Below, piece by piece: positions 2,810 to 64,000 of a DNA stretch of 64,000 nucleotides; within the stretch, counting starts at the first letter, position 1, and the number at the start of each line of letters is the position of its first letter. Under the pieces are notes generated by a model. It did not search any database. It saw only the letters and a list, made by a program, of their open reading frames with translations, and was not told the origin of the DNA. Source of the stretch: Saururus chinensis (Eukaryota; Streptophyta; Magnoliopsida; Piperales; Saururaceae); NCBI GenBank assembly GCA_035235625.1, contig CP141150.1, forward strand, positions 9,982,001 to 10,046,000. The letters are read 5' to 3'. A program made the translations under genes and the position numbers.

Positions 2810-3083
2810 ATCGCCAAACTGAGGTGACACTATCCCTTTTAAACCAAGATTGGGCAGTTCCAAGTGCATGACTCGCCCAAGCCGGCGACTGCAAGTGATC
2901 CCAGGCCAAAAGCAAAAGCGGGCGGAATGGTTCCAAGAAGTGAAGATTTGGTGAGGGTCACCAGTGATCTCCTTTTTGAAAGTCAGCAATGCAAGCCTAT
3001 CTGTCTCGTTGCCCACATGGACAGCCTTGATACTCATCAATAACAAGATGAAGCAGATGAAGAGTAAGTACTTGCACCTCTAT
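2810..3083 (-). pseudogene. LRR-XII receptor kinase, 5' exon fragment (copy 0)
   Basis: Read on the minus strand this is the N-terminus of an LRR receptor kinase. It shows a hydrophobic signal peptide, then NETDRLALLTFKKEITGDP and the LRRNT-type W-N-H...C-F-W-P-G-I-T-C motif, then the first leucine-rich segment. It matches copy 2 (56579 downwards) almost base for base. It stops after about 80 codons, where the CACTA element begins at 2809/2810. The initiator codon present in copy 2 is changed to ATA near 3081-3083. Two bases present in copy 2 are missing near 3066, which breaks the signal-peptide frame. The rest of the gene is not in the window. The intact family encodes plasma-membrane pattern receptors; this copy cannot. 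Confidence 0.85.
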
Positions 3084-3777
3084 GTTGGAAAGCCCAGGCA
3101 ATTAAATGGCGGAGAAACTGAGTTCCGTCAAGCACGCTCTTGTTTCTTCAATTTGTTTCTTCAATTTAATCCTTCAAATCCACACTGTTTCTCTCCCATT
3201 TGTTTGTGCCGTTCTTGAGAAGGCAAGATATTTGGATGGTCAGTGCGAGAGATGACGACAGCCAACCCATATTCTATGAAACACTGTTCAGCAAGTTGCA
3301 AAGACTTGCTAAGAATTGACTCGAAGTCGTCGGGTACCCAATTGACGTGCTTTAAGGTGCAGTTGGACTGCATAAACAACGATCCAAATTTCTTTGTTAA
3401 GGGGGGTTTTGTCGTTATGGATTTTACTTCCACACGTTTAGTGGAAAAAATTTCCCAATCTTGTTTATTTTTCTAAGATTGCTGTAATTTTTTATAAAAA
3501 TAAAAAAAATTGTGCGAAAAAAATATCTTACAAAACAAGTGACTTTTTTTTAGTGTTAGTCATGTGTTTTTTTTTCCAAATACACATGAAAATCTGTAGT
3601 TCTCTTAAAACCCAGATCATAGTTCATCTCCAAAGACTCAGTCTATAGAAAAGAAGTTTCTGAACCCAACTCGACGAGGCTCATTCCACACGACAAATAG
3701 GAAGAATTAAATACCCCCCCCCCCCCTCCCCAAAAAAAAAGAAAATTGATGTGCCCATCCATTCCACAGCTTCTGCA
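3084..3777. other. Head-to-head intergenic region, unit A
   Basis: This is the spacer between the LRR kinase start (minus) and lectin kinase 1 (plus). It matches the far sides of the longer spacers in the other units (about 22983-25841 and 56580-59060). The middle part of those spacers (about 24225-25660) is absent here, with the junction near 3573-3588, so the two reading frames lie only about 0.7 kb apart. A run of C residues lies at about 3714-3726. I see no convincing TATA box. Confidence 0.6.
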
Positions 3778-5898
3778 ATGGCTCTCTGCAATCCAAGAGC
3801 TGATCACCCCCACCACTCCATTACCATCCTCGTCTTCCTTCTGCTCCCGATGGTGGAGTCAATCTCATTCAATCTCACAAGATTCGAATATGGAGATGCA
3901 AATAGCATCATCACCTATGTTCTTGATGCTACCCCTGCGGGGGATCGCATTGAACTGACCACGAACAGAGTGAACTCGAATCTCACTTCAAGCGTTGGCC
4001 GAGCTTTCTATAAGCAGCCAGTGCAGCTTTGGAACCGGGTTACGCAGGAGCTCACCGACTTCGCCACCCACTTCTCCTTCAAAATTACTGAGAATGTTAG
4101 TCAATACGCCGGGGATGGCCTTGCTTTCTTCCTTGCAGCGAATGGTTCTCAACTTCCCGATCATTCTAAAGGAGGCAGTCTGGGGATTTTCAACCTCAGC
4201 TTCTCCCCAAATTCGACTTACGGGATTCCATTGGTTGCAGTGGAGTTTGACACCTTTCCCAACAGCGATTTTGACCCTAGTGACGACCATATAGGCATCG
4301 ACATCAATTCCTTTGTCTCTGTGGCAACTGTGACATGGGATACCAGCATGAAGGATGGTCGAGTGGCTAATGCGTGGGTAAGATACAACGCCAGCACAAT
4401 GAATCTGACTGTCTTTCTTTCTTATGATGAAAATGCTACCTTTAATGGCCGTTCGAGCCTTCATCACATTGTTGATTTGAGAAACGTTCTTCCCGAGTTG
4501 GTTTATGTGGGCTTCTCAGCTGCAACTGGGGCCAATGTAGAGATTCACAACATTCTGTCATGGGACTTCAGTTCAACTTTGCCGGTCCAAGAAGATGTAA
4601 ATACAGCTACTCCACCAACCCCTGGAAATGGAACAGAACATTCTGTAGATAAAAGTAGCAGTGATGGTAAGGCTAAACTAGTAGTTGGTGTGGTCGTTGG
4701 AGTGGTTGCTTTTATTGTAATAGCGAGTTTATTATGTTGGTTGTTTATGTGGAGAAAGAGTTCGTCTAGAGGGTACGAAGAAGATGAAAATGTGGACTTG
4801 ACCATGGATGATGAATTTGAGAAGGGAACTGCGCCTAAGAGGTTCACTTACAAAGAGCTGGCTACTGCAACCAATGATTTCTCAGAGGATGGGAAACTGG
4901 GGGAGGGAGGCTTTGGGGGCTTATACAGGGGGTTCTTGAGAGATTCGAGCCAGGATGTAGCGATTAAGAGGGTCTCAAGGAGCTCAAGACAGGGAAAGGA
5001 GTACGTCTCAGAGGTGAGGATCATCAGCAGACTGAGGCACCGGAATCTAGTTCAACTTCTTGGCTGGTGCCACGAGCGCGGTGAGTTACTTCTTGTTTAC
5101 GAGTTTATGCCTAATGGGAGTCTTGATTCTCATCTCTTTGGTGGGAAAAACCTTGTTCCATGGGAAACAAGGTCCAAAATTGCTCTGGGCTTGGCATCAG
5201 CATTGCTGTATCTTCATGAAGAGTGGGAGCAATGTGTGGTTCACAGGGACATCAAGTCCAGCAATGTGATGCTGGATTCTGGGTTCAATGCGAAACTTGG
5301 CGATTTTGGCTTGGCTCGCCTGGTGGACCATGAGCTAGGTTCACAGACAACTGTCTTGGCTGGGACCATGGGGTACTTGGCTCCTGAATGTGTCATTACT
5401 GGGAAGGCCAGCAGGGAGTCTGATGTTTACAGTTTCGGAATTGTTGCATTAGAAATTGCTTGTGGAAGGAGGCCAGTGAAGCCAACGGAGGAGCCTAGCA
5501 AGGTCATGATGGTTGAGTGGGTATGGGACCTCTATGGCAAAGGCACGCTTCTGGAAGCTGTTGATGAGAGACTAGGCAGTGATTATGAGGAGGAACAGAT
5601 AGAGAGGTTGATGATCATAGGGCTATGGTGTGCCCACCCTGATTTCCATTTTAGGCCTCATATGAGACAAGTTATTAGTGTCATGAAATTTGAGGCGCCA
5701 TTGCCTAATTTGCCAGCCCAGATGCCGGTGCCAATGTATTTTCCGCCTCCTATCCAATCTTACTCCTCTACTTATTCTTCTACCTCAAGTGGTGTGACAA
5801 ACTCGGAGAGAAGCCAGACGCAAACCTCTTCCAGTACCAGTACCAGCGAAGTGAATCCTTCACCCTCAAGTTATCTGTTGCGATCACCACTACACTAG
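3778..5898 (+). CDS. L-type lectin receptor-like kinase, LecRK-IX type (lectin kinase 1)
   Basis: Intronless frame of 706 residues. The open frame extends upstream to a GTG at 3751, but the first ATG is at 3778 (MALCNPRADHP), and that start is chosen. Order: signal peptide about 14-29 (ITILVFLLLPMVES), legume-lectin domain about 30-264 with the metal-site signatures GDGLAFF and AVEFDT..N...DP...HIGID, a Ser-rich stalk, one membrane helix about 300-324, then a Ser/Thr kinase. Kinase motifs are the Gly loop GEGGFG (375-380), VAIK Lys 397, HRD 489-491, DFG 509-511 and APE 535-537. A Ser/Thr-rich tail follows. The kinase resembles Arabidopsis LecRK-IX.1/IX.2, which act at the plasma membrane in defence and cell death. 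Oddities: the usual Val after the Gly loop is Leu, and one Lys codon present in the sister copies is missing (GKEYVSEV versus GKKEYVSEV). It looks functional. The ligand is unknown. Confidence 0.9.
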   Translation: MALCNPRADHPHHSITILVFLLLPMVESISFNLTRFEYGDANSIITYVLDATPAGDRIELTTNRVNSNLTSSVGRAFYKQPVQLWNRVTQELTDFATHFSFKITENVSQYAGDGLAFFLAANGSQLPDHSKGGSLGIFNLSFSPNSTYGIPLVAVEFDTFPNSDFDPSDDHIGIDINSFVSVATVTWDTSMKDGRVANAWVRYNASTMNLTVFLSYDENATFNGRSSLHHIVDLRNVLPELVYVGFSAATGANVEIHNILSWDFSSTLPVQEDVNTATPPTPGNGTEHSVDKSSSDGKAKLVVGVVVGVVAFIVIASLLCWLFMWRKSSSRGYEEDENVDLTMDDEFEKGTAPKRFTYKELATATNDFSEDGKLGEGGFGGLYRGFLRDSSQDVAIKRVSRSSRQGKEYVSEVRIISRLRHRNLVQLLGWCHERGELLLVYEFMPNGSLDSHLFGGKNLVPWETRSKIALGLASALLYLHEEWEQCVVHRDIKSSNVMLDSGFNAKLGDFGLARLVDHELGSQTTVLAGTMGYLAPECVITGKASRESDVYSFGIVALEIACGRRPVKPTEEPSKVMMVEWVWDLYGKGTLLEAVDERLGSDYEEEQIERLMIIGLWCAHPDFHFRPHMRQVISVMKFEAPLPNLPAQMPVPMYFPPPIQSYSSTYSSTSSGVTNSERSQTQTSSSTSTSEVNPSPSSYLLRSPLH

Positions 5899-6120
5899 TT
5901 TTTGTTTTGCTTTCCTATGTTATAATTTACATTCTCTTGAGAGTTTTAATTTTCAAATATGACGTACAGCTTTTGTATGAATATAAGCGAGGCCCGTTCG
6001 TTCTTATACCTTACCCGGCATAAGTGAAATATTCTTATACCCAGCTCAATTGAAACCCAACTGGTGACCATGTTGTTATGTTTGTGTTCACAAAAGCCCT
6101 CCGCACAATGCAATTTATAA
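5899..6120 (+). other. 3' flank of lectin kinase 1
   Basis: Non-coding sequence after the stop codon, closely matched after the other two lectin kinases (27960-28195 and 61179-61425). It probably includes the 3' UTR. No canonical AATAAA is certain; an A/T-rich GAATATAA lies near 5979. Confidence 0.5.
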
Positions 6121-6930
6121 GTTGTTAGAAGTGAGCATTATAATTAATGGGTTAAACTCATATTATTAAGGTGAGTATGATATTTATGTGGGTTTAGTTT
6201 ATATTACTTATGTGGGAAAAAAGCCTAAGCTCACTTTGAATTGAATGAGAATTACATATGAATTGGTTGAAGGAATAAATAGTCTTACATCACCTAAAAG
6301 AAGGTGATGGTGTTAGTATATAAGACATTAGTTTGGCCTTTCAAGTTAGGCCTTTAGGCCAACCCACTTTTGTAAGGGGAGAGAGATGTTGAACCCATGC
6401 ACCTAGGTGGGCTAACCCACACATGCGCCCGCACCACCGCCATCCGGTTGGCTGAGTTAAGTTGGGTCAACAAAAAAAAATTTTAGGATAAATTCATTTA
6501 GTTTGGTATTTTATTTATTTAGTTTGATTTTCTATAAACAAAATAGGTTCGGTTTGTTTTCACTTAAGAATGTGTCTGTTAAAGGATAGACACATCCGTT
6601 TGAATGGGAAAAAGTGTCTTCAACGGGATTTCATATAAAATAATTAAAAACGATTTCTGTACTAATTTGAATTTGGATTTATGTCTAATTCCTTTTTGTA
6701 AGAACATATATACTGTGATTCATTGCATGTATTTTGTTGGAGGTGCTCTTACAATACGTAGTTAATCGTCTTATCATGGGAAGTAGATACCAAGAGCCCT
6801 AAGCACCATTAAGAAGGGTAAATTTTGTCTTAAAGACAAAGCTACTTGCTTGATTCGATCATAAGAATTCTAGTAAGACTTCTCATCACAAACTTTGCAA
6901 AGGTATGAAAATACTAATCTTAAGACATAA
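6121..6930 (+). mobile_element. LTR-like segment upstream of Copia relic 1
   Basis: The segment begins with TGTTAGAAGTGAGCATTATA and holds a promoter-like stretch (TATATAAGACATTAG near 6317-6331). It recurs at the same place in units B and C (about 28200-29030 and 61430-62210). It looks like a retroelement LTR plus leader. No primer binding site was found, and it does not match the LTR-like end downstream of this relic (9662-11067), so boundaries and membership are uncertain. Confidence 0.45.
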
Positions 6931-6939
6931 TTTCTTTAC

Positions 6940-7740
6940 ATATTTTTGTACTTTACTAATTTGCATGTAGAATAGTAAATTTATAGGTTATATTATGTGA
7001 ATTTCAAAATTTTACTATTCATCTAAAAAAATTTCAAATTTTTTACTTTTCTATGTAAAATTTTTGAATTTTTACACTTTTGTTCGTAAATTTTTTAAAT
7101 TTGATAGTACTATGTATAAATTTTGGAATTTTACTATTTTGTGCTTAAATTCCTAAAATTTTACTATTCTACGTATAAAATTTCGAAATTAGACTATCTT
7201 GTGAGTAATATTTTCAATTTTTTTCATTCTATGTGAAAAAATTGAATTTTATACTATTTTGTGTTAAAATTTTCGAAATTCAACAGTTATGTGCATCAAA
7301 AGTTTCAAATTTTACTATTTAGTACGTCAAAATTTTCAACCTTATAGTTCTGTGCGTAAATCTCTAAATTTTTACTCTTTTGGGCTTAAATTTACATAAA
7401 TTTACTATTCTGAGCGTAAATTTTGAAAGATTATTATTATATATGTAAATTTCCTACAAGTTACTGTTTTGTGTAATTTTTTTTCAAAATTTACTATTCT
7501 GTGTGATATTTTCGCAATATTACTATTCTGTTTGAAAATTTTCAAACAATTACTATGCTATATGTAATTTTCGAAGTTCTCTGTGTCATGTAATTTTTGA
7601 AATTCTACTGTGTAATTTTTTAAACTTTATAGTACTGTATGTAATTTCTGGTACTTGCCTAGGTGTAAATTTTCAAACTTTACTGAGTTATATGTAATTT
7701 CTCAAATTTTATTAGGTTGCATGAAATTTAAAAAAATTAA
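6940..7740 (+). repeat. AT-rich degenerate periodic repeat, unit A
   Basis: About 800 bp made of many diverged short units around the theme AAATTTT(C/T)GAAATTTTACTATTCTGTGTG, with a period of roughly 30-45 bp. It lies just ahead of the Copia gag start. The same block precedes gag in units B and C. It has no coding capacity. Confidence 0.7.
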
Positions 7741-7802
7741 AAATTAAAAAAATTTATATAATTATTTTTTATTGAGATAATTTTCTGTTCATTGGAATAG
7801 AA

Positions 7803-9661
7803 ATGACTACTGATGGTACCAACTTGACTTCGGTGGTACTTATTCCTACTCCAGTGAATGCTCCTCTTCAAATTAAAGGAGAAAAACTAGAAAAGTTTAG
7901 CGGTGTGGATTTCAAACGATGGCAATAGAAAATGTTATTCTATCTTACCACATTGAACCTAGCCCGATTCCTTCAAGTGGAAGTACTCGTTCTCACTGTG
8001 GAGAAATAGGAAGACAAGATGGCTGTTGCGACAGTAGATGCATGGAAACATGTGAATTTCATATGTCGTAATTACATCCTTAATAGGTTGGACAACACAT
8101 TATATAATATGCATAGTTCAATGAAAAGTGCTAAGGCACTATAGGAGTCATTAGACAAGAAATATAAGACTGAAGATACTGAAACGAAGAAATTCGTGGT
8201 TGGCAAATTTCTAAACTTTAAAATGGTGTACTGTAAAACTGTGATTAGTCAAGTTCAAGAACTCAAAGATATCCTGCATGATATTCATATAGAAGGCATG
8301 ACTTTAAGTGAGTCTTTTCAGGTGGCAACTATAATAGAAAAATTACCACGTTCCTGGAAGGATTTTGAGAACTACTTAAAGTTAAGAGAAATGAGATGAA
8401 CAAGGAAGATTTGATTGTGAGGGTAAAGATTAAAGAGTACAACCATGCTTATGAAAAGAAAACTGGGGGTCATGGTATGGAAGTCAAAGTTAATGTTGTG
8501 GAACAGGGGCATAAAAATAATATATTCAATAACAAGAAGAGGAAGCATCCTGCTTAACAACCGAACAATGACTCCAACAAAGCCAAGTTCAAGGGCAAGT
8601 GCTATGTGTGTGACAAGATGGGTCACAAGGCTAATGATTGTAGCAAATGGACAAAATAAGATGATTCCAAGAAGAAGAATGCACAAGCTCACATGACTGA
8701 AGTGGAAAATCTCTTCACCAATGTGAATGACATCAACTTTTCTGCTGTAATTTCGGAAGTGAACATGGTCACGAATACTAGAGAATGATGGGTGGACATT
8801 GGGGCTACTCGTCATGTTTGCTCTAATAGGAAGATGTTCTCCACTTATCAACCCGTGGAGAATGGTGAATAGTTATTTATGGGCAATTGTTCTACTGCAA
8901 AGGTTGAAGCAATTAGAAAGGTTGTGCTCAAGATGACCTTAGGCAAAGAGCTCACTCTCAACAATGTGTTGCATGTGCCAAAAATTTGAAAGAATTTAGT
9001 GTCTGGATCATTGTTGAGCAAGAATGGGTTCAAGTTGGTTTTTGAGTCAGATAAATTTGTCTTGAACAAGGGTGGGATGTATGTAGGCAAAAGGTACCTA
9101 AATGAGGGGCTTTTTAAGCTCAATGTACTCACTATTGTACCTATTTCTGTTATTAAGAATGCAAATGGTTCTTCATTGTATATGATTGAGTTATGTGATT
9201 TGTGGCATAGTAAATTAGGACATGTTAATTATGACGCTTTGCGAAGATTGATTAATATGGAATATCTGCCTAAGTTTAATATTGCCTCTAATCATAAATG
9301 CAAAACTTGTGTAGAATCAAATTTAACAAGGAAATCTTTCCAAAGTATTGAAAGATGAACTGAACCTCTTGAGTTAATTCACAGCGATGTCTGTGACTTA
9401 AAACTTGTTCAAAAAAGAGGAGGTAAAAAGTATTTTATTATATTTATCGACAATTGTACTCATTATTGTTATGTTTACTTGTTGAGAAGTAAAGATGATG
9501 CTATTGACATGTTTATATTATATAAAATAGAGGTTGAGAATCAACTTGGCAAGAAAATAAAAGTTCTAGATTCCCAATGTGAAGAGGACCCAAATGGTTG
9601 GGCAAATACTTGACTGGATGAAAATAATCTAGTCTAAGTTCGAATGTTTGGGGGAGTTAGT
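7803..9661 (+). mobile_element. Ty1/Copia retrotransposon relic 1 (fossil)
   Basis: Parts visible in order: a gag region beginning at an ATG at 7803, with Copia gag signatures (ISQVQEL, MTLSESFQV, EKLP.SWKDFENYLK near 8230-8380); a CX2CX4HX4C zinc knuckle near 8600-8650; an aspartic-protease-like stretch near 8790; and the start of an integrase near 9190-9580. No reverse transcriptase or RNase H is seen before a purine-rich stretch near 9646-9655. The element is broken, with several breaks. It is shared at the same position by all three units, so it is older than the unit duplication. Confidence 0.8.
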
Positions 9662-11067
9662 TGTTGTGCACGATCACCAAGACTACTTACTTTTTGTTAT
9701 TGCATTATATTATGCTACTTTCTTTTAGATTTCCCTCGTATTTGCTTATGTAATAGGAGAAATAACTGTATTGGGCCAGCTAGTGGCCCGCAAGATAGCC
9801 AAACCCACTAGTTGGCACGATTCCCAAGGTGAGTGGGTCGGCTCCCCATATGGGTCACCCCCTTCTCTCTTTGTTGGTTATGCAATTAGATATTCAAAAT
9901 TCTCTCCCCTTTCTTCCTTCTTCCTTCCTTTTCCCTTCATGAAACTCCGAGGTATTGCTTGTGCCACTTTAGGCACAACATTAGTGGTCATAAAGACCTG
10001 GGGCTTCTATGGATACATTAGTAATGTCTTAGAAGATATTTTCTCCCTGAGTTGGGATGGTAGAATTGTGATACGCTTTCTTCACTGCAACAATTGTTTG
10101 GGTATTGGCTAGAGAGGTCTTTACTGCGGATCATCCGCATGTCTTTCCAAGACCATATAGTGCGTATAAAAAGCGGAGTTGTATGAGCATCATGAAAGTC
10201 TTGTCCTTCTCGCTAATTTGTGTCCATGAGCATAGTTAGGTTTTTCTTCTCTAGATTCGTAGTAGGCTATTGAGAGACATAGTGATTTGGGTCAAACTGC
10301 TATTAAGCAGTCTACTCCAATGTTGGAGTTATTTATCTAGAGATTTCTTCGAGAGTTGAGTTATAGTATTAATTATTGAACAAGGGTTGTGAGATAATTA
10401 ATAACATTGTTTGATTTTGCTTGTTTAAATAGACAAGTGGAACGATTAAAGGACTTATATAAAATGTAGGTTGATTGAAAATACTTAAGCATTGCATGTG
10501 TGATGCTATGCTTCTTAGGATAATTTAGTTTTAGCCAGAACTACGTCTGGATTCTATCTTATTGGAAACATTAAAGATGTTGTCTAATGAGTACGTAGGC
10601 AACTAATATCGGGTGATGTTGGTCCATTTTAAAAAATATTAATAAAAACTTTTGTCCCTTTGGAAACTCTTCTCCTGAGGGTGGAGAGGTTCCATTATTA
10701 TTGTTGTTTGGTTTGGTTGGTTGCAGGTTTTCCTGGCGACGACTAGTGAGACCATGATTAACGAGCACATGATGAATTTCCTTGTTTTTGCAATTCCGGT
10801 ACGTAAGAATAGCTTTGGCGTGAGCGTCAACTTAGTTATTTTATTTTCAGATAGATGATAGACTTGTACTTAGATGGATAAGTTGATCTTTATGAATTTT
10901 TCAGAAGTGTAATAATATCATATAATTTAATATTCGTATTTGTGAACCCCAATTATCATGATCTGGATATTTAATCAAATGGTTTGTTTCGTATTTAAGA
11001 AAGAAAGAAAAATTGTGACTTACTGTCATACTATTTAAAAAGGCTTTTAAAAATCCAGGTCGTGACA
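9662..11067 (+). mobile_element. Putative 3' LTR-like end of Copia relic 1 (fossil)
   Basis: The segment starts TGTTGTGCACGATCACC directly after a purine-rich tract (TTTGGGGGAG) and ends in GGTCGTGACA, so it has TG...CA ends and a plausible LTR length of 1.4 kb. The same segment follows relic 2 (31733-33129). No matching copy was seen upstream of gag. Assignment as the 3' LTR is an inference. Confidence 0.5.
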
Positions 11068-11970
11068 CAAATAACAACTTTTATTTAATTTTTTGAAAAA
11101 ATTATTAGTGCTCTTTAGCAACAAAATTTGTCTTCACAAAATACTTTTTGGGACATTCATTTGCGAGTCATTGCAAAAGATCATCTACAACAACTTGTGC
11201 TTTTGCTACGATGTGATTCGTCCCAAATTTGTTGCATGCAATTTTTCCAACACTAACAAAATGTAGTATTAGCGACACAACCAAACATCGCTAAAAAAAA
11301 CTACCTACAACGCGTACAAAAGCGTCGCAAAAAAATAAACTATTAGCGTCACATTTTCTTATGTGTTGCTGATAGTCATATATTGGTGATGCTTAGTTTA
11401 AAGCGTCACCAATACTAATCATATTAGTTCTTCTATTTGCAACGTTTACACAAACGTCACTAATAGTTTTATAATAAGTGTCGCTAATAGTTCTTCTATT
11501 TGTGACGTTTTACACAAATGTCACTGAAAGATATATATTTTAAAAAAAAATCATAACGATTAGCAACACTTTTTTTAAGCGTCGCTAATGGCTTTAACAA
11601 TAGTGACGCTTAAGAAAGTGTCACTAATAGTTATGGATTAAAATAAAAAAATAAAAAAATTGAATTATGAGCTGTATTTTTAAACTAGCATCGCAAATAG
11701 CATTGGAAATAGTGACACTTGTTTACAAGTGTCGCTAATACCATTATTAATTAATTTTATTTAATAAATAAAAAATAAATATTAAAAATTTAAAATAAAT
11801 TTCCTAACTATAATATATTTTATTCAATATTTACTATTTGTATATGTAATAAATAAGTATTAAATTTTTAATAAAAAGTAATGTTAATAATAGATTAAAC
11901 TTTTAATATTTATATATGATATATTTTATTTTTTTACTTTTATTATTAATTTTAAAATATAATTTATAAT

Positions 11971-17842: not shown

Positions 17843-18164
17843 AGAGGAAAGACAGAAAGGGAAGGGAGAGATAGGAGAGGGAGAGGAGAGAGAAGAAGAG
17901 AAAGAAGAGAGAGGAAAGTAGAGAAAGTAAGAGTATTTGCGACACTTGTGTATAAGCATCACAAATATAATGATGTTAGCGACATTTATGTATAATTGTT
18001 GTAAATAAATATTATTTGTAACTTTTAACAAAACGTCGCTAATATATAATATTTGCAATGGTTTCATTATTAGTCGGCAAAAAATAATTGTTTGTGGCAC
18101 TTAGACAAAGCGTTGCAAATACATTTATTTTCAACGCTTTCTAAGCGTTGTAAAAACAAAGCGT

Positions 18165-18650
18165 GCTGCCAAAAAAAGCCCTTGTGGGTATTTTTTTCCC
18201 ACACGGAATTTTCGTCTCTATTCCGCTTCTCGCCTCCCCCCACCGCCGTGTGCCGATTGCCGCTGTCGCAATCTGCTTTGCTGCACCCCAACCGCCATCT
18301 TTACCCGCGTCCCATCCGCTTGACTGCACCATAGCCTCCCGTCCACCCCGCTACACCCTAGCCTCCCGTTGGCCCTATTGCACCCCAGCCCACCTCCACC
18401 CCTGCTAAGCCACGTGTCCGCCCTGGTGTCCTAGCCACCTTTCTACCCTGCTGCACCACATCTTCCCTCTATCGTCCCGCATTTGCCCCCGGCCACCCCG
18501 CTTTGCTCCGCCCCCCTTCCACTCCCCGGTTCCCCCCCTTCTCACCCCTGGCTCCCCCCTTCCCCCCTCCTTTCCCTTTGATTTTCGGTGGAGGGGAAGG
18601 AGGTCCCCGCCGGATTCCGATCTCCCGTCGGCAGCCTCTTGCCATCAGCA
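18165..18650. repeat. C-rich block in CACTA 1
   Basis: The block is rich in CCCGCTGCACCCCAGCC-like units of roughly 30 bp and in CCCCTTCC runs. It ends near GGAGGGGAAGGAGGTCCCCG and matches 40090-40610 in CACTA 2. It has no recognisable protein domain. It may be captured host sequence, but I do not recognise the source. Confidence 0.5.
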
Positions 18651-46080: not shown

Positions 46081-46309
46081 GACCCCTTATGTGTGGGTGT
46101 TTATGTTTGCGCGCTCAGGTAAGTAGTATCATGGATCTACTCTTACCTGTTTGATCCAGTGCCCCATGAGCATTGGTGTGCCTTACCTTCGAAAAAGTCC
46201 TTGGCGTCTAGTCACTCCCCGGAGGTTAAGGTGTTGCCCCAGTGGCATTCTTTTCCTTTTCGACGCTGGAGCTTATTAGTTGTAATGAGCTTCAGTGGTC
46301 GTTGATATG

Positions 46310-47518: not shown

Positions 47519-47530
47519 TGGTATCGGAGC
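47519..47530 (+). other. Primer binding site (initiator Met tRNA type)
   Basis: TGGTATCGGAGC lies two bases after the 5' LTR end. It differs by one base from TGGTATCAGAGC, the sequence complementary to the 3' end of plant initiator Met tRNA used by most plant LTR elements. Confidence 0.9.
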
Positions 47531-49163: not shown

Positions 49164-49176
49164 AAGGAGGGAAGAA
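49164..49176 (+). other. Polypurine tract
   Basis: AAGGAGGGAAGAA abuts the 3' LTR start at 49177, the expected place for plus-strand priming. Confidence 0.85.
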
Positions 49177-53626: not shown

Positions 53627-56579
53627 AAGAATAACTAAATATATTATCTAGCAAAAAGTAAATAACTATTAAGTTTAAGATCATACAAAATATAAGATCG
53701 ATTTGGCTATGAATAAGGCAATGCCATTTTCATGCATGATACCTTAGACTAGAACGGGACCAATAAAGACCAAGTTTGATATGAAAATATTTACTCAATT
53801 AGAGAGGTCATGTCACCACTTTTAAAATTTGTTGAAGTACATGTCTTTCTTATCTTTACATATGATCTGTACACTATGTAGCATTCAAATGGTAAAAGGT
53901 AGAGAAATATTTACCTGAGGCAATGTAGCCAATAGAACCTTCCAAAATGAGGAACTTGTTTGATGGGAGGATGAATTATCTCTTGTTGTTCCAAGGCTCT
54001 TGATCAAGCCAAAGTCTCCCAAATGTGCCACCATGTCATCATCAAGAAGAATATTGCTTGGTTTTATATCACAGTGAACAATTGGAGGTCCACATTGATT
54101 ATGAAGATAATCTAAAGCATTAGCTACATCAATGGCCACATCTAATCTTTTACTAAAGACCAAATATTTAGGTGAGTCATTGCCAATTATTTATTGGTGC
54201 AATCACTGCTCAATACTTCCATTCGACATAAGCTCAAATGCTAAAGGTTTAAAATCTCTTCATTTTAAATTTGAACTTGAGCATGAAGTTAAAATCTTAA
54301 CAAGATTCCTCTGACAAATATTTCGTAAAGCTCCACATTCATCCATAAAAGTTTTCACGACATAGTCTTGATTAAGATTAAGTACCTTAATAGCAACCAT
54401 GGTTTGATAGTTCTGCAAAAATCCTTTATATACAGTGCCAAAGCTCCTTGTGCCAATTAAATTTGAGGAAGAAAAACCATTTGTTGCTTTGAGGAGCTCT
54501 ACGTAAGAGACTTTAAAATGTAAATCGATTGAGAAAGAAGAGGAGGAATGGTGCTTCCTAATTTTTGTTCTTTTGTATAATATGAGTATGCAAGATATTA
54601 CCAAACCAAAAATAGAAGCAACAATTAATAATTTAACTTTCATTGAAAGAGATTTTCTACCTTGGCTGATAAATTTTGGTTGGCAAGGAGCCAAGTGCAA
54701 CTGTGATATACCACCACATAACTTGGGATTTCCATCCAGAAAAATGACACTTGCATTGCTAAAGATTCCTGTTGTTGGTACTCCCTCAAAATTGTTAAAA
54801 GAGAGATTCAAATAATTTGTACTGTTGAGCTTAGAGAGAAATTTTGGAATATTCCCTGACAAATTGTTGTGTGAAAGATTTAGCTACTCTATACCTTTCA
54901 CATATACTAAGGAAGGATGAATACTTCCACTGATAGAGTTGTTCTAAATAAATAGTTGTTGTAACACAGAGCAACCACCAATGTCTATGGGGATCTCGCC
55001 TGACAAATGATTGTTATAGACATTGAAAGTAGTGAGTAATATCAATTTACCCACTTCTGATGGTACCGGCCTAGTTCACAAATTGTTATCCATTTTCAAT
55101 TCAACAATAGAAATGAGATTGAACAAGGTCATTGGTATCTTACCGCTAAGCGTGTTGTTGGAAAGGCCAAGATATACAACACCTTTATAATTCCCAATGT
55201 TCGATGGGATGTGCCCTTCGAGTTGATTACCACTTATATCAAGGACAACCAACTGAGTTTAAGTTGCCAATGTTATATGGAATTTCACCAGACAACTTGT
55301 TTGTACCAAGGTCAAGCTCTACAAGCCGTAGAAGCTTTCCAATTGTTGCAGGAATTTCGCTAGTCAGATGGTTATACTCCAAAGTTAATGACTGCAACTG
55401 TACAAGGTTTTCAATTCCTGAAGGGATGGCTCCGTGGATTTGATTCCTTCCATGCATTAAGTGTTCGAGATGATCGGAGAGGTTTGTTGTGGATTTGGGG
55501 AGAGAACCGGTAAGACTATTTTGATCAGCTGAAAGCCAGACCAAGGAAGTACAGTTGGTCAAAGATGCAATAAACTGCAGGTCATTGTTTCCGACACCTC
55601 CAAGCCGGTTGCCCATAATGTTAAATCGATCTAAACTCTTCAAATTTCCATGATCGATAGGTATAGACCCAGTGAAAAAATTAGCCCCAAAGTCGAGCAC
55701 TGTGAGGCGAGAAGCATTGGATAGAGTGGTTGGAAGAGGACTAATGAATTTGTTTCCACCAACAAAAAGAGCTTCAAGGTTTGACATTGTAAGGCCAATG
55801 TTTGAGGAAAGTCTTCCCTGAAATTGGTTAGTTGCAAGAGACAACGCAATCAGGGATGAGAGGTTGCAAAGAGAAGGAGGTAACGTACCAAATAGCTTGT
55901 TGTGAGTACAATAAAATATTCTCAAGCTGAAAAGCTGGCCAAGTTCACTTGGGAGGCGCCCATCAAATATATTAAATGCCAGGGACATACGCTCCAGAGC
56001 AGAAAGGTTCCCAAACGAAGGCGGAATCGTTCCAGTGAGTTTGTTTTGAATGAATTCAAGGTGACGCAGCTGAGACAATGAACCAAGCTCGGCCGGGACA
56101 TTTCCTACCAGTCCATTTCCACCCAATTGAAGATAAAAGAGGTGGGAGCAGTTGGAGAGACGGCCTGGAATTTCTCCTTGTAGCGAGTTGTTAGCCATAT
56201 TAAGAAATTCGAGGCGACGCAAACGAGCCAACTCAAATGGTATGCTGCTATGAAAGCCATTCTCATGGATGTCTAAGCTGTCCAAGCTTTTGAGGAAGGA
56301 AAGATCGCCAAGCTGAGGTGACACTATCCCTTTTAAACCAAGATTGGGCAGTTCCAAGTGCGTGACTCGCCCAAGCCGGCGACTGCAAGTGATCCCAGGC
56401 CAAAAGCAAAAGTGGGCGGAATGGTTCCAAGAAGTGAAGATTTGGTGAGGGTCAGCAGTGATCTCCTTTTTGAAGGTCAGCAATGCAAGCCTATCCGTCT
56501 CGTTGCCCACATGGAAAGCCTGGATACTCATCAATAACAAGATGAAGCAGATGAAGAGTGCAAGTACTTGCACCTCCAT

Positions 56580-59060
56580 GTTGGAAAGCCTGGGCAATTA
56601 AATGGCGGAGAAACTGAGTTCCGTCAAACATGCTCTGGTTTCTTCAATCTAATCCTTCATATCTACACTCTGTTTCTCTCCCATTTGTTTGTGCCGTTCT
56701 TGAGAAGGTAAGACATTTGGATGGTCAGTGTGAGAGACGACGACAGCCAGCCCAGGTGCAGTTGGACTGCATAAACAACTATCCAAATTTCTTTGTTAAG
56801 GGGGGTTTTGTCGTTATGGATTTTACTTCCACGCGTTTAGTGGAAAAAATTTCCTAGTCTTGTGTATTAGTGGAAAAAATTTCCCAATCTTGTTTATTTT
56901 TCAAAGATTGTTGTAATTTTGTATAAAAAATAAAATTTTTTTGTGCGAAAAAAATATCTTACAAAACAAGAGTGACTCTTTTTAGTGTTAGTCATGTGTC
57001 ATTTTTTCCCACATACAAAATAAATTTATATTGCCCTAGGTTCGTCAAGTGTATTATGGAGTTTTTTCCATATATTAATTTAATGAAAGATTAACAAGGA
57101 AGAATACTGAGAGAAAGCAAGCTTTCAATCTCATTCACAGCAGATGAACAAAGTCATTGATTGTGGACATGGAAGAAAGTTTCTTTTATATGGGGCAAAA
57201 CAATGTTTTAAAAACTGACCCGACCTAGCTGGTCGAACCCGACCTAACCTGATAAATTTTCTGAGTTGGTCATTTATTGGTTTAATCCAGTCTTTTGCCT
57301 TAACTACTCGTGCTTCGAGTATGGGATGGACGTCATTGGGTCTCTCTAGAGACATTGATCCATATGAGTGTCATTATATGAGTTTGTTTCAACTATAGAC
57401 AAAGAAAAAATGGATCTTTCCATGAATTAAAGCCAATGTAAGGGGAGTTAAAAAAATATATGTAAAAGAGGATCGGGATGGTAACAATTGACAATCAAAA
57501 CGCTACGTGAAAATAGGACAAAGGTGAAAGAATTATACTCTTCATGGTTCCTACTTGTGGCTATTCAGCACAAGCAAGTTATAAGGTTTCCCCAAAGTCA
57601 TGCTTAAAACTTTGTAGCCTCTTTAAAAAAATACCATCAGAAAGCCACATAAGAAAAAAAAAGTTAACTATTATCATCATCATTCACGTAAATAAGCAAT
57701 GGGTCTTGCTGCTAATGAGAGGGTGACGGACGGCTGATGAGAAGAAGGTCCCATAGGATAAAGTTTTTCCAAGATGAATAGGAAAATAAAGATACGAGAT
57801 GATAGGGAAGAATTTTTCATGCTCCCTTGACAAAGAGCCCAACGTAAGAAATGTATATGAGCCCTTTGATATTTGAGATATATGGCGTATACATTAGTTC
57901 ATGTTAGCACTAATATGTACTATTGTGTGTGGTATCATCTTATATATAAAAAACTCTCATAAGTTCCTTAAGTTAGGTTTATTGTCAACGTGGAGCATCA
58001 AAAACGCTTCCAAAATGATGATACTCTCATTCCTAACCTCTGGTTAGCTTCCTCCCATTTTTCTTCCCACCTGAAGCTATTTTAATCTTCTTTAGGGTGG
58101 GGTTAGCGGTCATCCCATGCCATTAGCCAAGACCCGTTTGATTCGTATGGAGTATGATTCTCCTACTTGTGTGTTTGACATTTGCACCGATAAATGTATT
58201 ACGACATGAAGACTTCAATCTTATTGGGCACCTGACCCCGTCTAAATTTAGGGCAAGCATTGCAAATTTATTTTTCGGCCAAGATTTGAGCCCACCCCTA
58301 GCCCATCAGGGCTGAACCCGCTTGTAGCTCAGCAAACGTGTTTGAATCACTTACTTGACCCCTCCATTAGTATGTGTCATTGGATGCTGCCGTAGCTCAA
58401 TCTAATAGATGGTCTATGATGCCTTGATTTATGTAAACTTGCTTGAACCCGGGCCAATGTTAACTTTTTTCTTTTAAAATTAGTTTTTTATCTGTCTCCG
58501 CCTCGTCGCCAAAAAAAATATTATTTTCATCTTATATTAATAGTTATATTTAAAAAAATAATATAATTTTTATTACACAGTAGAAACTTATGATACTCTT
58601 TTTAAGTACTCAATCAATTAAATTAAAATAAATAAAATTATTAATATATAGTAAATTTTTTGTCAAATTTAGCTATTAAGTTTAATTTCGGACTCAGCGA
58701 GAGTATCTACGCTTCCGCATCTAGGTTTGTCGAATAGATTTATTATCTGTTGAATTGATTCATGTATATCAAAATCCAATAATAAATTAGGGGGGTCTAC
58801 AACAGACTATTATTCATGTGATCGGGTATTCGAAGAACAAGACTTAGCAGTCTCCAAAGTTGAAAAAGTCACAAAATTCAGTGAGCTGAAAATCTATAGT
58901 TCTCTTAGAACCCATATCATAGTTCATCTCCAAAGACTCAGTCTGTAGAAAAGTAGTTTCTGAACCAAACTCGACGTGGCTCATTCCGCTCGCCAAATAG
59001 GAAGAATCGAATACCCCCCCAAAAAAAATTGATGTGCCCATCCATTCCACAGTTTCTGCA
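56580..59060. other. Intergenic region between LRR copy 2 and lectin kinase 3
   Basis: 56580-57075 matches the upstream region of the other LRR copies. About 57080-58270 has no counterpart in units A or B, and I recognise no gene or element in it. 58275-59060 matches 25043-25841. The spacer is non-coding as far as I can see. Confidence 0.5.
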
Positions 59061-61178
59061 ATGGCTCTCTGCAATCCAAGAGCTGATCATCCCCACCACT
59101 CCATTACCATCCTCGTCTTCCTTCTGCACCCGATGGTGGAGTCAATCTCATTCAATCTCACAAGATTCGAAAATGGGGATTCAAATATCACCTATGTTTC
59201 TAATGCTACGGCTGCCGGCGATCGCATTGAGCTGACCACGAACAGAAGGAACTCGAAGATCACTGAAAGCGTTGGCCGAGCTTTCTATAAGCAGCCAGTT
59301 CAGCTTTGGAACCGGGTTACGCAGGACCTCACCGACTTCGCCACCCACTTCTCCTTCAAAATTGAGAATGTTAATCAAACCGCCGGGGATGGCCTTGCTT
59401 TCTTCCTTGCAGCGAATGGTTCTCAACTTCCCGATAATTCTAATGGAGGCAGTCTGGGGCTTTTCAACCTCAGCTTCTCCGCAAATTCGACTTACGGGAT
59501 TCCAGCGGTTGCAGTGGAGTTTGACACCTTTCTCAACAGCGATTTTGACCCTAGTGACAACCATATAGGCATCGACATCAATTCCTTTGTCTCTGTGGCA
59601 AATGTGACATGGGATACCAGCATGAAGGATGGTCGAGTGGCTAATGCGTGGGTAAGATACAACGCCAGCACATTGAATCTGAGTGTTTTTCTTTCTTATG
59701 ATGAAGATGCCACCTTTAATGGCCGTTCGAGCCTTCATTACATTGTTGATTTGAGAGACGTTCTTCCCGAGTTGGTCTATGTAGGCTTCTCAGCTGCAAC
59801 TGGCCTGTCCGGTGTAGAGATTCACAACATTCTGTCATGGGACTTCAGTTCAACTTTGCAGGATCAAGAAGATGTAAATACAGCTACTCCACCAAACCCT
59901 GGAAATGGAACAGAAGATTCTGTAGATAAAAGTAGCAGTGATGGTAAGGCCAAACTAGTAGTTGGTGTTGTCGTTGGAGTGGTTGCTTTGATTGTAATAA
60001 CGAGTTTATTAGGTTGGTTGTTTATGTGGAGAAAGAGTTCGTCTAGAGGGTACGAAGAAGATGAAAATGTGGACTTGACCATGGATGATGAATTTGAGAA
60101 GGGAACTGGGCCTAAGAGGTTCACTTACAAAGAGCTGTCTACTGCAACCAATGATTTCTCAGAGGATGGGAAACTGGGGGAGGTAGGCTTTGGGGGCGTA
60201 TACAGGGGCTTCTTGAGAGATTCGAGCCTGGATGTAGCGGTTAAGAGGGTCTCGAGGAGCTCAAGACAGGGAAAGAAGGAGTACGTCTCAGAGGTGAGGA
60301 TCATCAGCAGACTGAGGCACCGAAATCTAGTTCAACTTCTTGGCTGGTGCCATGAGCGCGGTGAGTTACTTCTTGTTTACGAGTTTATGCCTAATGGGAG
60401 TCTTGATTCTCATCTCTTTGGTGGGAAAAACCTTGTTCCATGGGAAACAAGGTCCAAAATTGCTCTGGGCTTGGCATCAGCATTGCTGTATCTTCATGAA
60501 GAGTGGGAGAAATGTGTGGTTCACAGGGACATCAAGTCCAGCAATGTGATGCTGGATTCTGGGTTCAATGCGAAACTTGGCGATTTTGGCTTGGCTCGCC
60601 TGGTGGACCATGAGCTAGGTTCACAGACAACTGTCTTGGCTGGGACCATGGGGTACTTGGCTCCTGAATGTGTCACTACTGGGAAGGCCAGCAGGGAGTC
60701 TGATGTTTACAGTTTCGGCTTTGTTGCATTAGAAATTGCTTGTGGAAGGAGGCCAGTGAAGCCAACGGAGAAGCCTAGCAAGGTCATGATGGTTGAGTGG
60801 GTATGGGACCTCTATGGCAAAGGCACGCTTCTGGAAGCTGTTGATGAGAGACTAGGCAGGGATTATGAGGAGGAACAGATAGAGAGGTTGATGATCATAG
60901 GGCTATGGTGTGCCCACCCTGATTTCCACTTCAGGCCTCATATGAGACAAGTTATTAGTGTCATGAAATTTGAGGCGCCATTGCCTAATTTGCCAGCCCA
61001 TATGCCGGTGCCAATGTATTTTCCGCCTCCTTTCCAATCTTACACCTCTACTTATTCTTCTACCTCAACTGGAGTGACAAACTCGGAGAGAAACCAGACG
61101 CAAACCTCTTCCAGTACCAGCACCAGCGAAGTGAATCCTTCACGCTTAAGTTATCTGTTGCGATCACCACTACACTAG
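59061..61178 (+). CDS. L-type lectin receptor-like kinase, LecRK-IX type (lectin kinase 3)
   Basis: Intronless frame of 705 residues from the ATG at 59061. The open frame extends to a GTG at 59034, but MALCNPRADHP is the shared start. Layout as lectin kinase 1: signal peptide, legume-lectin domain with GDGLAFF and AVEFDT..N...DP...HIGID, one membrane helix (LVVGVVVGVVALIVITSLL), kinase with VAVK, HRD, DFG and APE, and a Ser/Thr-rich tail. By hand alignment it differs from lectin kinase 1 at roughly 14% of lectin residues but only about 5% of kinase residues. Oddity: the second glycine of the Gly-rich loop is Val (GEVGFG, GTA at 60183-60185, residue 375), a position almost invariant in active kinases, so ATP binding may be impaired. 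The frame is otherwise whole. It may be an active, weak or pseudokinase receptor. Confidence 0.87.
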   Translation: MALCNPRADHPHHSITILVFLLHPMVESISFNLTRFENGDSNITYVSNATAAGDRIELTTNRRNSKITESVGRAFYKQPVQLWNRVTQDLTDFATHFSFKIENVNQTAGDGLAFFLAANGSQLPDNSNGGSLGLFNLSFSANSTYGIPAVAVEFDTFLNSDFDPSDNHIGIDINSFVSVANVTWDTSMKDGRVANAWVRYNASTLNLSVFLSYDEDATFNGRSSLHYIVDLRDVLPELVYVGFSAATGLSGVEIHNILSWDFSSTLQDQEDVNTATPPNPGNGTEDSVDKSSSDGKAKLVVGVVVGVVALIVITSLLGWLFMWRKSSSRGYEEDENVDLTMDDEFEKGTGPKRFTYKELSTATNDFSEDGKLGEVGFGGVYRGFLRDSSLDVAVKRVSRSSRQGKKEYVSEVRIISRLRHRNLVQLLGWCHERGELLLVYEFMPNGSLDSHLFGGKNLVPWETRSKIALGLASALLYLHEEWEKCVVHRDIKSSNVMLDSGFNAKLGDFGLARLVDHELGSQTTVLAGTMGYLAPECVTTGKASRESDVYSFGFVALEIACGRRPVKPTEKPSKVMMVEWVWDLYGKGTLLEAVDERLGRDYEEEQIERLMIIGLWCAHPDFHFRPHMRQVISVMKFEAPLPNLPAHMPVPMYFPPPFQSYTSTYSSTSTGVTNSERNQTQTSSSTSTSEVNPSRLSYLLRSPLH

Positions 61179-61425
61179 TTTTTGTTTTGCTTTCCTATGT
61201 TATAATTTAGATTCTCTTGAGAGTTTTAATTTTCAAAAATGATGTACAGCTTTTGTAAGAATATAAGTGAGGCCTGGCCCGCAATAAGTGAGGCCCGCTC
61301 GTTCTTATACCCTACTCAGTCTAAGTGAAATATTCTTATACCCAGCCCAATTGAAACCCAACTGGTGACCATGTTGTTATTGTGTTCACAAAAGCCCTCC
61401 GCACAATGTAATTTATAAGTTGTTA
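61179..61425 (+). other. 3' flank of lectin kinase 3
   Basis: Non-coding counterpart of 5899-6120 and 27960-28199. Confidence 0.45.
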
Positions 61426-61429
61426 AAAG

Positions 61430-62210
61430 TGGGCATTATAATTAATGGGTTAAACTCATATCATTAAGGTGGATATGATATTTATGTAGGTCAAGCCTAT
61501 ATTACTTATGTAGGTCAAGCCCATATGGTAGAAAGAGCCCAAGCCTATTTTGAATTGACTGAGAATCACATGTAAATTGGTTAAATGAGTGAATAGTCCC
61601 ACATCGCCTAAAAGAAGGTGATGATGTTAATATATTAGATATTAATTTAGCCTTTCAAGTTAGGCCTTTGGGCCAACCCACTTTTGTGGGGGTAGAGAGG
61701 TGGGCTAACCCACATGTGCGCCCGTGCCACCGTCGTCCGGCCGGCATAGTCAGGTTAGGTCAACAAGATAATATTTTTGGGGTAAATTTATTTTGTTTGG
61801 TTTTCTATTTATGTAGTTTGGTTTTCTATTAACCAAAATGGGTTCGGTTTGTTTTTACTAAAGAATGTGTCTGTTAACGGATGGACGCATCCATTTGAAC
61901 GGGAAAGAGTGTCTTCAACAGGATTTCCTATAAAATAATTGAAAACGATTTATGTACTAATCCGATTTTAGATTTCCACCTATTTCCTTTCTATGTGAGC
62001 ATACATATTGTAGTTCGCTGCATGTATTGTGTTGGAGGTGCTCATAAAGTATGTGGTTGATCGTCTTATCCAGGGAGGTAGATGCCCAAAAGTCCTAAGC
62101 ATCGTTAAGGAGGGCAAATTTTGTCTTAAGGATAGAGCGACTTGCTTCTTTCGATCATAATCATTCCAGTAAGACTTCTCGTCACAAACTTTGCAAGTGT
62201 ACGAAACTAA
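61430..62210 (+). mobile_element. LTR-like segment upstream of Copia relic 3
   Basis: Opens with TGTTAAAAGTGGGCATTATA. Same features as 6121-6930 and 28200-29030. Limits not certain. Confidence 0.45.
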
Positions 62211-62219
62211 TAATCTTAA

Positions 62220-63000
62220 GACAGGATTTCTTTACATATTTTTGCACTTTACTATTTTTCATGTAGAATAGTAAATTTATAGGTTATATTATGTGAATTT
62301 CGAAAATTTACTGTTCATCTCAAAAAATTTCGAATTTTTTACTTTTCTGTGTAAAATTTTCAAATTTTAACACTTTTGTACTTAAATTTTTTAAATTTGA
62401 TAGTACTGTGCATAAATTTCAGAACTTTACTCTTTTGTGCTTAAATTCCTAAAATTTGACTGTTCTACGTATAAATTTTTGAAATTAGACCATCATGTGA
62501 GTATTATTTTCAAAATTTTTTATTCTGTGTGAATAATTCGGATTTTTTACTATTTTGTGTTAAAATTTTTGAAATTCAACAATTATGTGCATCAAAAGTT
62601 TGAAATTTTACTATGTAGTACATCAAACTTTTCAACCTTATAGTTCTGTGTGTAAATTTCTAAATTTTTACTCTTCTGGGCTTAAATTTACTTTTCTGAG
62701 CATAAATTTTGAAAGACTATTATTATATATGTAAATTTCCTACAAGTTAAATTTACTGTTCTTTGTGAAATTTTCGCAATATTAATGTTTTGTTTGAAAA
62801 TTTTCAAATAATTACTATGCTATATGTAATTTTCGAAGTTCCCTGTGTTATGTAATTTTCAAAATTCTACCGTGTGTAATTTTTTGAACTTTACAATACT
62901 ATATGTAATTTTTAGCACTCGCCGAGGTGTAAATTTTTGAAATTTACTGAGTTATCTGTAATTTCTTGAACTTTATTGGATTTCATGAAAATTTAAAAAA
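62220..63000 (+). repeat. AT-rich degenerate periodic repeat, unit C
   Basis: Third copy of the block before gag, with the same 30-45 bp theme and its own substitutions and length changes. Confidence 0.7.
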
Positions 63001-63060
63001 AATTTAAAAAAATTTATTTAATTTGTTTACTGAGATAATTTTATGTTCATTGGAATAGAA

Positions 63061-64000
63061 ATGACTGCTAATGGTACCAACTCGACTTCGGTACTTATTC
63101 CCACTCCGGTGAATGCTCTTCTTCAAATTAAATGAGAAAAACCAGAAAAGTTCAGTGGTGCAGATTTCAAATGATGGCAACAGAAAATGTTATTCTATCT
63201 TACCACATTGAACCTAGCCTGATTCCTTCAAGAGGAAGTACCCGTTCTCACTGAGGAGAAACGGGAAGACAAGACTGTTGTTGCGACAATAGATGCATGG
63301 AAATATGCGGATTTCTTATGCCGTAATTACATCCTTAATGTGTTGGACAATACATTATATAATATGTACAGTTCAATGAAAAGTACTAAGGCACTGTGGG
63401 AGTCATTAGACAAGAAGTACAATACTTAAGATGCTGGAACGAAGAAATTCGTGGTTGGCAAATTTTTGGACTTCAAAATAGTGGACTCTAAAACTGTGAT
63501 CAGTCAAGTTCAAAAATTCCAAGTTATCCTGCATGATATTCATGTAGAAGGCCTGACTTTAAGTGAGTCTTTCCAGGTGGCAGCTATAATAGAAAAATTA
63601 CCACCTTCCTGGAAGGATTTTGAGAACTACTTAAAGCATAAGAGAAATGAGATGAACAAGGAAGATTTGATTGTGAAGGTAAGGATTAGAGAGGATAATC
63701 ATACTTATGAAAAGAAAATCGGGGGTCATGGTATGGAAGCCAAAGTTAATGTTGTAGAACAAGGGGCATAAAAGTAATAGCTTCAATAACAAGAAGAGGA
63801 AACATCCTACTTGACAATCGAACAATGACTCCAACATAGCCAAGTTCAAGGGCAAGTGCTATGTGTGTGACAAGATGGGTTACAAGGCTAAGGATTGTAG
63901 CAAACGGAAAAAACAAGATGATTCCAAGAAAAAGAATGCACAAGCTCACATGACTGAAGTGGAATATCTCTTCACCAATGTGAATGACATCATCTGTTCC
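63061..64000 (+). mobile_element. Ty1/Copia retrotransposon relic 3 (fossil, runs off the window)
   Basis: Gag start at 63061, gag core near 63450-63770 (ISQVQKF, LTLSESFQV), and zinc knuckle near 63855-63900. The window ends before the protease. Broken, with a few breaks in the visible part. Same position behind the lectin kinase as relics 1 and 2. Confidence 0.8.

Follow-up and report, generated by a model that had tools for sequence, protein, structure and literature searches.

A tandem array of lectin kinases, broken leucine-rich repeat kinases and transposons with a three-unit register in Saururus chinensis

A 64,000-nucleotide stretch of Saururus chinensis DNA (the window; assembly GCA_035235625.1, contig CP141150.1, here called C11, positions 9982001-10046000) forms the middle of a tandem array of about 181 kb that holds eight lectin-kinase copies, damaged leucine-rich repeat (LRR) kinases and transposable elements (TEs). 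The units of the array are arranged as A1 B1 C1 A2 B2 C2 A3 B3, with a register of ~66.7 kb, and the cluster most likely grew by the copying of blocks through unequal recombination. All coordinates are those of the window (genome position = 9982000 + coordinate), with negative values and values above 64000 denoting the flanks on C11; from left to right, the lectin kinases are named U1-U8 and the LRR kinases K0 and K2-K7.

The array and its three-unit register

We added 100 kb on each side of the window and compared the resulting 264 kb, which contains no N bases and hence no marked gap, with itself. The array runs from about -77.7 to +103.2 kb, with lectin kinases at -67.9, -40.9, -18.95 (cut short), 3.8, 25.9, 59.1, 85.7 and 102.9 kb (cut short). 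A full unit consists, in order, of a lectin kinase on the plus strand, a spacer with a Copia relic, a CACTA element (CACTA #1) with a nested solo long terminal repeat (LTR), and an LRR kinase on the minus strand; U1 lacks the TE body, and U3 and U8 are incomplete.

Within the window, self-BLAST gave same-strand matches between 3587-12871 and 25666-34861 (88%, offset 22.08 kb), 14375-19960 and 36184-41966 (84%, offset 21.8 kb), 20368-22559 and 53627-55841 (92%, offset 33.26 kb), and 25031-30809 and 58265-63994 (89%, offset 33.23 kb). Kilobases of sequence at 84-92% identity in a single order and orientation are evidently not a product of chance. A sequence-only reading of the window had proposed a repeated 22-kb unit from regularly spaced landmarks, and the off-diagonals near 22 and 33 kb that it called for are present, while the flanks supply the further units on either side that it looked for, extending the cluster to eight lectin-kinase copies. 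Its landmarks were also recovered. The ATG of a protein beginning MALCN lies exactly at 3778, 25842 and 59061; Copia alignment blocks begin at 7811, 29881 and 63071, within 10 bp of the gag starts it had placed at 7803, 29878 and 63061 (these being block starts and not the gag codon); and CACTA #1 left ends lie at 33315, which reads CACTACAACAAA, and at 11251, where the same end carries a small deletion, with a third at 66527, beyond the window. Successive lectin-kinase starts are 22,064 bp (25842 - 3778) and 33,219 bp (59061 - 25842) apart, the latter falling to 21,846 bp after subtraction of a later LTR element and one copy of its target site duplication (TSD).

The three-unit register is marked by a second element, CACTA #2, which is confined to the 5′ ends of K0, K3 and K6 (A-type units; left ends at -74626, -2419 and 79291). 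This element has CACTA...TAGTG inverted ends, and its TSD reads ATC left and right in K0 and K3 and ATC/ATT in K6; its right part occupies positions 1-2809 of the window, the element beginning 2419 bp farther left. The corresponding empty site is found at -21763 in K2 and at 56295-56315 in K5 (where a single TSD copy is present), with one mismatch each to the joined flanks, and within 4 mismatches this sequence occurs nowhere else in the 264 kb. K4 and K7 are incomplete at the position, which leaves K2 and K5 as the copies in which an empty site is readable.

Kimura two-parameter (K2P) distances between U2 and U5 were 0.023 in the spacer, 0.017 and 0.048 in the 5′ and 3′ parts of the Copia relic, and 0.025 and 0.024 in the middle and right of the CACTA element, and those between U3 and U6 were 0.019 (Copia 3′ part), 0.028 (CACTA middle) and 0.027 (lectin-kinase piece). 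Among the LRR kinases, K2 and K5 differed by 0.018 and K3 and K6 by 0.004. In the TE and spacer segments, U4-U7 distances were 0.084-0.118 and those of other pairs 0.086-0.144, with neighbouring units at 0.09-0.14. The ~450-bp flank upstream of the lectin kinase had a pattern of its own (0.005 for U1-U4 and U3-U6, 0.030-0.075 for the others). In trees (100 bootstraps) of non-coding alignments that held 5, 6 and 5 units, U2+U5 and U4+U7 had a support of 100 in all three and U3+U6 reached 100 in the one alignment holding both, and K2+K5 and K3+K6 were each supported at 100 in an LRR-kinase tree. These comparisons indicate that the U4-U7 relation is old and the U2-U5 and U3-U6 relations are recent, and we conclude that the three-unit register predates a recent exchange, described below.

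Shared transposon insertions and the state of the kinase genes

The left junction of CACTA #1 is at the same place in all six unit bodies, and the 12 bp to its left are identical in U2, U3, U5 and U6, with one base different in U4 and three in U7. The right junction is common to five of the six (with a 9-bp deletion in U5) and is lost in U6. Both ends of CACTA #1 are present without a 3-bp TSD, the flanking triplets being TAA (CAA in U4 and U7) against ACA. The solo LTR is bordered by AGAGG on the left in five of six copies (GAGAG in U7) and on the right in all five right ends present; because the left site lies within an AG-rich repeat, the shared junction is stronger evidence than this TSD. 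Since TE junctions are common to the units, the insertions occurred once, before amplification, and were then copied with the genes. The proposal that both kinase families and their TE load were copied jointly as a mixed block, and not by transposition of each part, is upheld by these shared junctions, and it is also backed by the same-strand tandem order and by similar transversion divergence in genes and TEs.

In the window, the spacer and Copia relic of U4 occupy 5983-11250 (plus strand; a broken gag_pre-integrs piece) and its CACTA #1 occupies 11251-19171, with the nested solo LTR at 13611-17842 and AGAGG on both sides. The U5 counterparts lie at 28046-33314 (plus strand; Retrotran_gag_2, Pol_BBD and gag_pre-integrs pieces, with a dispersed repeat from ~28205) and at 33315-41182 (solo LTR at 35350-39783, AGAGG on both sides), and the U6 spacer and start of the Copia relic (61265-64000, plus strand) run out of the window. 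Long AG/CT-rich repeat tracts in the CACTA elements (742-1246, 13108-13609 and 34756-35348) hold many long, apparently spurious frames, and AT-rich ~30-bp tandem repeats lie between lectin kinase and Copia gag at 7000-7600, 29.1-29.5 kb and 62.3-62.7 kb.

An uninterrupted frame over the full length is present in two of the eight lectin kinases, U4 (A2; 3778-5898, plus strand; 715 aa from GTG, 706 codons from ATG) and U6 (C2; 59061-61178, plus strand; 714 aa from GTG, 705 codons from ATG). In each, Pfam placed Lectin_legB and Pkinase in one open reading frame (ORF), which identifies an L-type lectin receptor kinase (LecRK); the PDB match, 6cth_A, is the kinase domain of a lectin kinase and does not fix the clade, for which the sequence-only reading had put forward LecRK-IX. 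U5 (B2; 25842-27959, plus strand) has an in-frame stop in the kinase domain at 27159-27161 that is common to U2, and U1 and U7 have an N-terminal break in common. At what is presumably the glycine loop of the kinase, U6 reads GEVGFG and the other five full copies read GEGGFG. The ratio dN/dS of lectin-kinase pairs was 0.69-1.45 in 15 of 15 pairs. When 13 older, non-independent pairs were pooled, pN/pS was 1.76 in codons 0-148 (pN 0.088, pS 0.050), 0.69 in codons 149-639 and 0.77 beyond.

None of the seven LRR kinases is intact, all being broken or truncated, and therefore at most one receptor family per unit can be live. K0 has an 823-aa frame that ends at CACTA #2, and K4 (20077-22928, minus strand) is a pseudogene with a broken frame. 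K5 is a pseudogene whose 3′ part (41963-42258, minus strand) is severed by the later LTR element from the remainder at 53627-56597 (minus strand), which includes an LRR N-terminal ORF (55242-56597) and a kinase piece (54263-54883). Frame breaks are common to K2 and K5 and to K3 and K6. The domains of an LRR receptor kinase are present piecewise, as LRRNT_2 and LRRs in K5 and as LRRs and Pkinase in K0. The sequence-only reading had placed these kinases in LRR-XII, a candidate assignment to the subfamily of FLS2, EFR and XA21. The best PDB match of K0 was FLS2 at 449.9 bits, 0.5 bit above GSO1 at 449.4, and for K5 GSO1 came first and FLS2 third; NCBIfam matches of the kinases all fell under their cut-offs and were not used. 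We conclude that most kinase copies are dead and that some, with the stop of U2 and U5 and the break of U1 and U7, were copied when already dead.

The history of exchange and its alternatives

The recent exchange is most sharply delimited in the lectin-kinase gene. From -41200 to -38850, the U2-U5 difference is 8% (65/807) to the left of -40390 and 0.5% (7/1541) to its right, and the change point at -40390 (U2 coordinates) has a doubled log-likelihood difference of 102. On the 5′ side of the switch U5 groups with U8, and on the 3′ side with U2, each at a bootstrap of 100 (200 bootstraps; seven copies on the 5′ side, with U4 excluded as it lacks most of the stretch, and six on the 3′ side, where U3 and U8 are cut short). 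The switch point in U5 falls at 26406-26685 (plus strand), within the lectin-kinase ORF, and either U2 or U5 is, judged by this pattern, a recombinant gene. The similarity continues up to a right end at ~ -2.5 / 79.2 kb, broken only where the later LTR element has inserted and by gaps of ~5.9 kb in U3 and 2.3 kb before K6; most 500-bp windows in this tract differ by 0-4.6%, and farther right, beyond the tract, the K3-K6 difference amounts to 2-15% per 300 bp. Both edges lie in homologous sequence, one of them within an ORF, and these homologous edges, the single order and strand and the recombinant gene are the marks of unequal homologous exchange. Smaller tracts appear younger still: U3 and U6 have 2 differences in ~2.5 kb (-21.4 to -18.9 kb), K0, K3 and K6 have 866 bp in common at 0.1-0.35%, and U1 and U7 are identical over 681 sites at the 5′ end of the lectin kinase. 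The sequence-only reading erred in taking a uniform 22-kb unit as the piece exchanged, since the array repeats every three units (66.7 kb) and what was last exchanged on a large scale is a ~38-kb tract (~1.75 units) that begins inside the lectin-kinase ORF.

The later LTR element (42259-53626; 11,368 bp) has TG...CA ends, LTRs of 5258 and 4450 bp that differ by a K2P of 0.019, and a 5-bp TSD, AAGAA, at 42254-42258 and 53627-53631. It is present only in the second copy of the recent tract, with no counterpart in U2-U3. No Pfam match (E 0.01) was obtained in the 4 ORFs scanned, and the element may be LARD-like, a label for large non-coding LTR elements. Both of its LTRs carry GC-rich tandem repeats of 164-166 bp (42759-43325 and 49668-50225).

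We propose that a composite locus consisting of a lectin kinase, a Copia relic, CACTA with a solo LTR, and an LRR kinase on the opposite strand would have formed first, at a single site on this chromosome. Non-allelic homologous recombination between misaligned copies would then have produced single units A, B and C and afterwards the ~66.7-kb three-unit register; much later, a ~38-kb tract (the right part of B, C and the left part of A) would have been exchanged between the two trimers. The simplest crossover path would be an expansion by three units followed by a contraction by three, and one long conversion tract would leave an identical picture. The tract edge inside the lectin-kinase ORF would have yielded the recombinant kinase, after which smaller, younger exchanges would have occurred and the LTR element would have inserted in the second copy, with TEs and dead genes passively carried along. 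We regard this sequence of events, from composite locus through single units and trimer register to a ~38-kb re-exchange with passive passengers, as probable. A model with one recent 66.7-kb trimer duplication was ruled out, as the U4-U7 bodies are old.

Several observations weigh against the proposed history. An old U4-U7 relation beside recent U2-U5 and U3-U6 relations does not fit a single step, and at least two large exchanges are therefore needed. K4+K7 had a bootstrap of only 69 in the LRR-kinase tree, and near-identity in the recent tract is not uniform, since a pair of windows located at about -9.7 to -9.0 kb, in internal tandem repeats, differ by 9.4% and 5.4%. All 13 other full-length pairs also drop in divergence from -40.4 to -39.7 kb, and the U2-U5 step is therefore in part a general rate change along the gene. 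A longest-run permutation test, run with 2000 shuffles on each of 10 unit pairs and 3 LRR pairs, failed to single out the exchanges described and is not built upon: the result was at most 13 shuffles in six of the ten unit pairs, of which four had a run of 20-30 bp near -35.86 kb that looks like a local alignment effect and the other two were U4-U7 (7; -40.96 to -40.81) and U6-U7 (2; -40.49 to -40.39), while K3-K4 gave 14 and the recent pair U2-U5 gave 52.

By total distance, moreover, the TE parts are 2-4 times more diverged than the kinase genes. Among old pairs, transversions per site were 0.024 in the lectin kinase, 0.018 in the LRR kinase and 0.022-0.038 in spacer, Copia and CACTA (U8 and K7 excluded). 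At CG and CHG sites, TEs and spacer had 0.24-0.28 transitions per site, against 0.14 for the LRR kinase and 0.048 for the lectin kinase; the corresponding values outside these contexts were 0.035-0.059, 0.019 and 0.012 (U8, K7 and, for the lectin kinase only, U3 excluded). The higher TE divergence is compatible with joint copying only because the excess consists of transitions. Methylation-type decay of the TEs likely causes this excess, and the difference at other sites may reflect CHH methylation or constraint on the genes; decay of this kind makes genes seem younger than the unit around them. Gene conversion acting on the kinase genes alone was rejected as the main cause of their lower divergence, since transversions are similar and the TE excess lies in transitions.

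The most serious competitor to two crossovers, which we consider possible but clearly less likely, is a single long tract of gene conversion or replication-based copying between the trimers at constant copy number. It accounts for the homologous sequence at both edges and for the old relations retained by the flanking units, but a length of ~38 kb would be unusual for a conversion tract of the ordinary kind. Duplication of a single 22-kb unit in tandem, step by step, as in the sequence-only reading, would leave neighbours as closest kin, and the in-window offsets near 22 kb and the units' common order and strand agree with it. However, in TE and spacer sequence neighbours stand at 0.09-0.14, whereas U2-U5 and U3-U6, three units apart, differ by ~0.02; CACTA #2 is present in K0, K3 and K6 and its site is empty in K2 and K5; and the trees pair units three apart at 100. 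This model is contradicted for the recent copies and unlikely overall, and it may hold for the oldest layer.

Equally unlikely is an assembly artefact in which the second B-C block (~26.4-79 kb) is the other haplotype, misplaced in tandem. Divergence of ~2% with large indels, here the 11.4-kb element and gaps of ~5.9 kb and 2.3 kb, is plausible between haplotypes of an outcrossing plant. Yet the 264 kb hold no N bases, both low-divergence edges are homologous with one inside an ORF, U4 and U7, likewise three apart, differ by ~0.1 in TE parts, which is too much for alleles, and U8, next after U7, groups with U5 at 100. Capture of the kinases as cargo of a CACTA or LTR element, a notion prompted by the TEs in each unit body and by LRR-kinase relatives scattered along C11, is highly improbable. 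In the array, neither kinase gene is enclosed by CACTA or LTR ends; separate TSDs and fixed junctions mark CACTA #2, the solo LTR and the large LTR element; and the long inter-unit repeats are all on one strand.

Possible shuffling of lectin ectodomains and comparison with other clusters

It is conceivable, if rather doubtful, that the array shuffles lectin ectodomains, with recent exchanges repeatedly breaking in the first half of the lectin domain. The best change points were -40390 for U2-U5, -40484 for U1-U7 and -40536 for U3-U6 (U2 coordinates), and their intervals together span 241 bp. Recombination there would combine new lectin halves with a kinase half that the copies have in common, the TE filler providing long pairing homology, and the excess of pN over pS in the first 149 codons fits such shuffling. 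Counting against it, U1-U7 and U3-U6 step in the direction opposite to U2-U5, and the 13 other pairs also show a step from -40.4 to -39.7 kb, so that the one in U2-U5 is partly a rate change. The change points, at -40607 to -40366 (U5 ~26.2-26.4 kb) in the lectin domain, mark a possible recombination hot spot. If breakpoints in the lectin domain recur, the locus would lend itself to testing whether arrays of this kind generate new receptor ectodomains.

Tandem receptor and resistance clusters with TEs and unequal exchange are already known; the unusual feature here is that TEs mark a three-unit register. In satellite higher-order repeats, a unit is closest to the unit n positions away; the present array is alike in this respect and unlike in its ~22-kb unit with genes and TEs and in having eight copies only. 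The Xa21 cluster of rice, described by Song and colleagues in 1997, is said to combine linked receptor kinases with transposon-like elements, and rearrangement there was reportedly thought to drive diversity. Our array resembles it in the linked receptor kinases with transposon-like elements among them, but here the amplified gene that is open is the lectin kinase, all seven LRR kinases being broken or truncated, and the TEs lie within the repeat unit with common junctions and a three-unit register. An excerpt of a paper on soybean Rps1-k (PMC2330051) gives seven members in 230 kb for Xa21 and mentions unequal crossing-over leading to tandem duplication at Rps1-k, where resistance-gene copies are likewise accompanied by Copia-type retroelements; the Rps1-k genes are of the CC-NB-LRR type and not receptor kinases, and the excerpt has no three-unit register. 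Tandem duplicate genes of maize are also tied to TEs, with unequal crossing over named, but the excerpt concerned (PMC6118310) covers a genome-wide gene survey, with no single comparable locus found in it. Tandem duplication also expands the L-type LecRK family in Brassicaceae, according to an excerpt of PMC5322546. Among the titles and abstract openings listed, the literature on L-type LecRK expansion yielded no mixed unit of LecRK, LRR kinase and TEs, and a literature search yielded no array in which receptor kinases and TEs repeat in threes. The exchanges that shape receptor clusters are frequently difficult to reconstruct. Here insertions, empty sites, shared lesions and an in-gene breakpoint show the order of events. 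The case also shows dead genes and transposons multiplying alongside receptors, with exchange in a three-unit register.

Across the genome, a search for Lectin_legB gave 79 matches, 10 of them in the array (eight genes, two of which matched twice). With the U6 gene as DNA query, 21 matches were obtained, eight in the array at 88-100%, and the best match outside it was a gene on C9 at 86%. The 40 kb around the C9 gene contain no LRR-kinase match, and apart from the lectin kinase their matches to the 264 kb are repeat pieces only, with a Copia-type piece (72-75%) 13 kb from the gene and solo-LTR-family pieces (76-84%) ~8 kb off on its other side. The spacer-Copia segment is a dispersed repeat: a 1836-bp query gave at least 50 matches (40 of 1649 candidates scored), and those listed comprise five array copies at 85-100% and others at 68-88%, nearly all from ~base 160 on. 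An LRR-kinase query gave at least 47 matches (40 of 131 candidates scored), seven of them array copies; among the matches listed, C11 holds many at ~82-88% (at 11.0-11.5, 14.5-15.5 and 21.5 Mb), C5 has a pair at 84%, and further ones at 69-79% are on C1, C8 and C10; short pieces fall outside these main identity ranges. The dispersed C11 family (mostly 85-87%) is a possible source of the unit's LRR kinase. To the right of the array, at 149013-151568, lie two long adjoining ORFs (517 and 334 aa) that look retroelement-like by eye.

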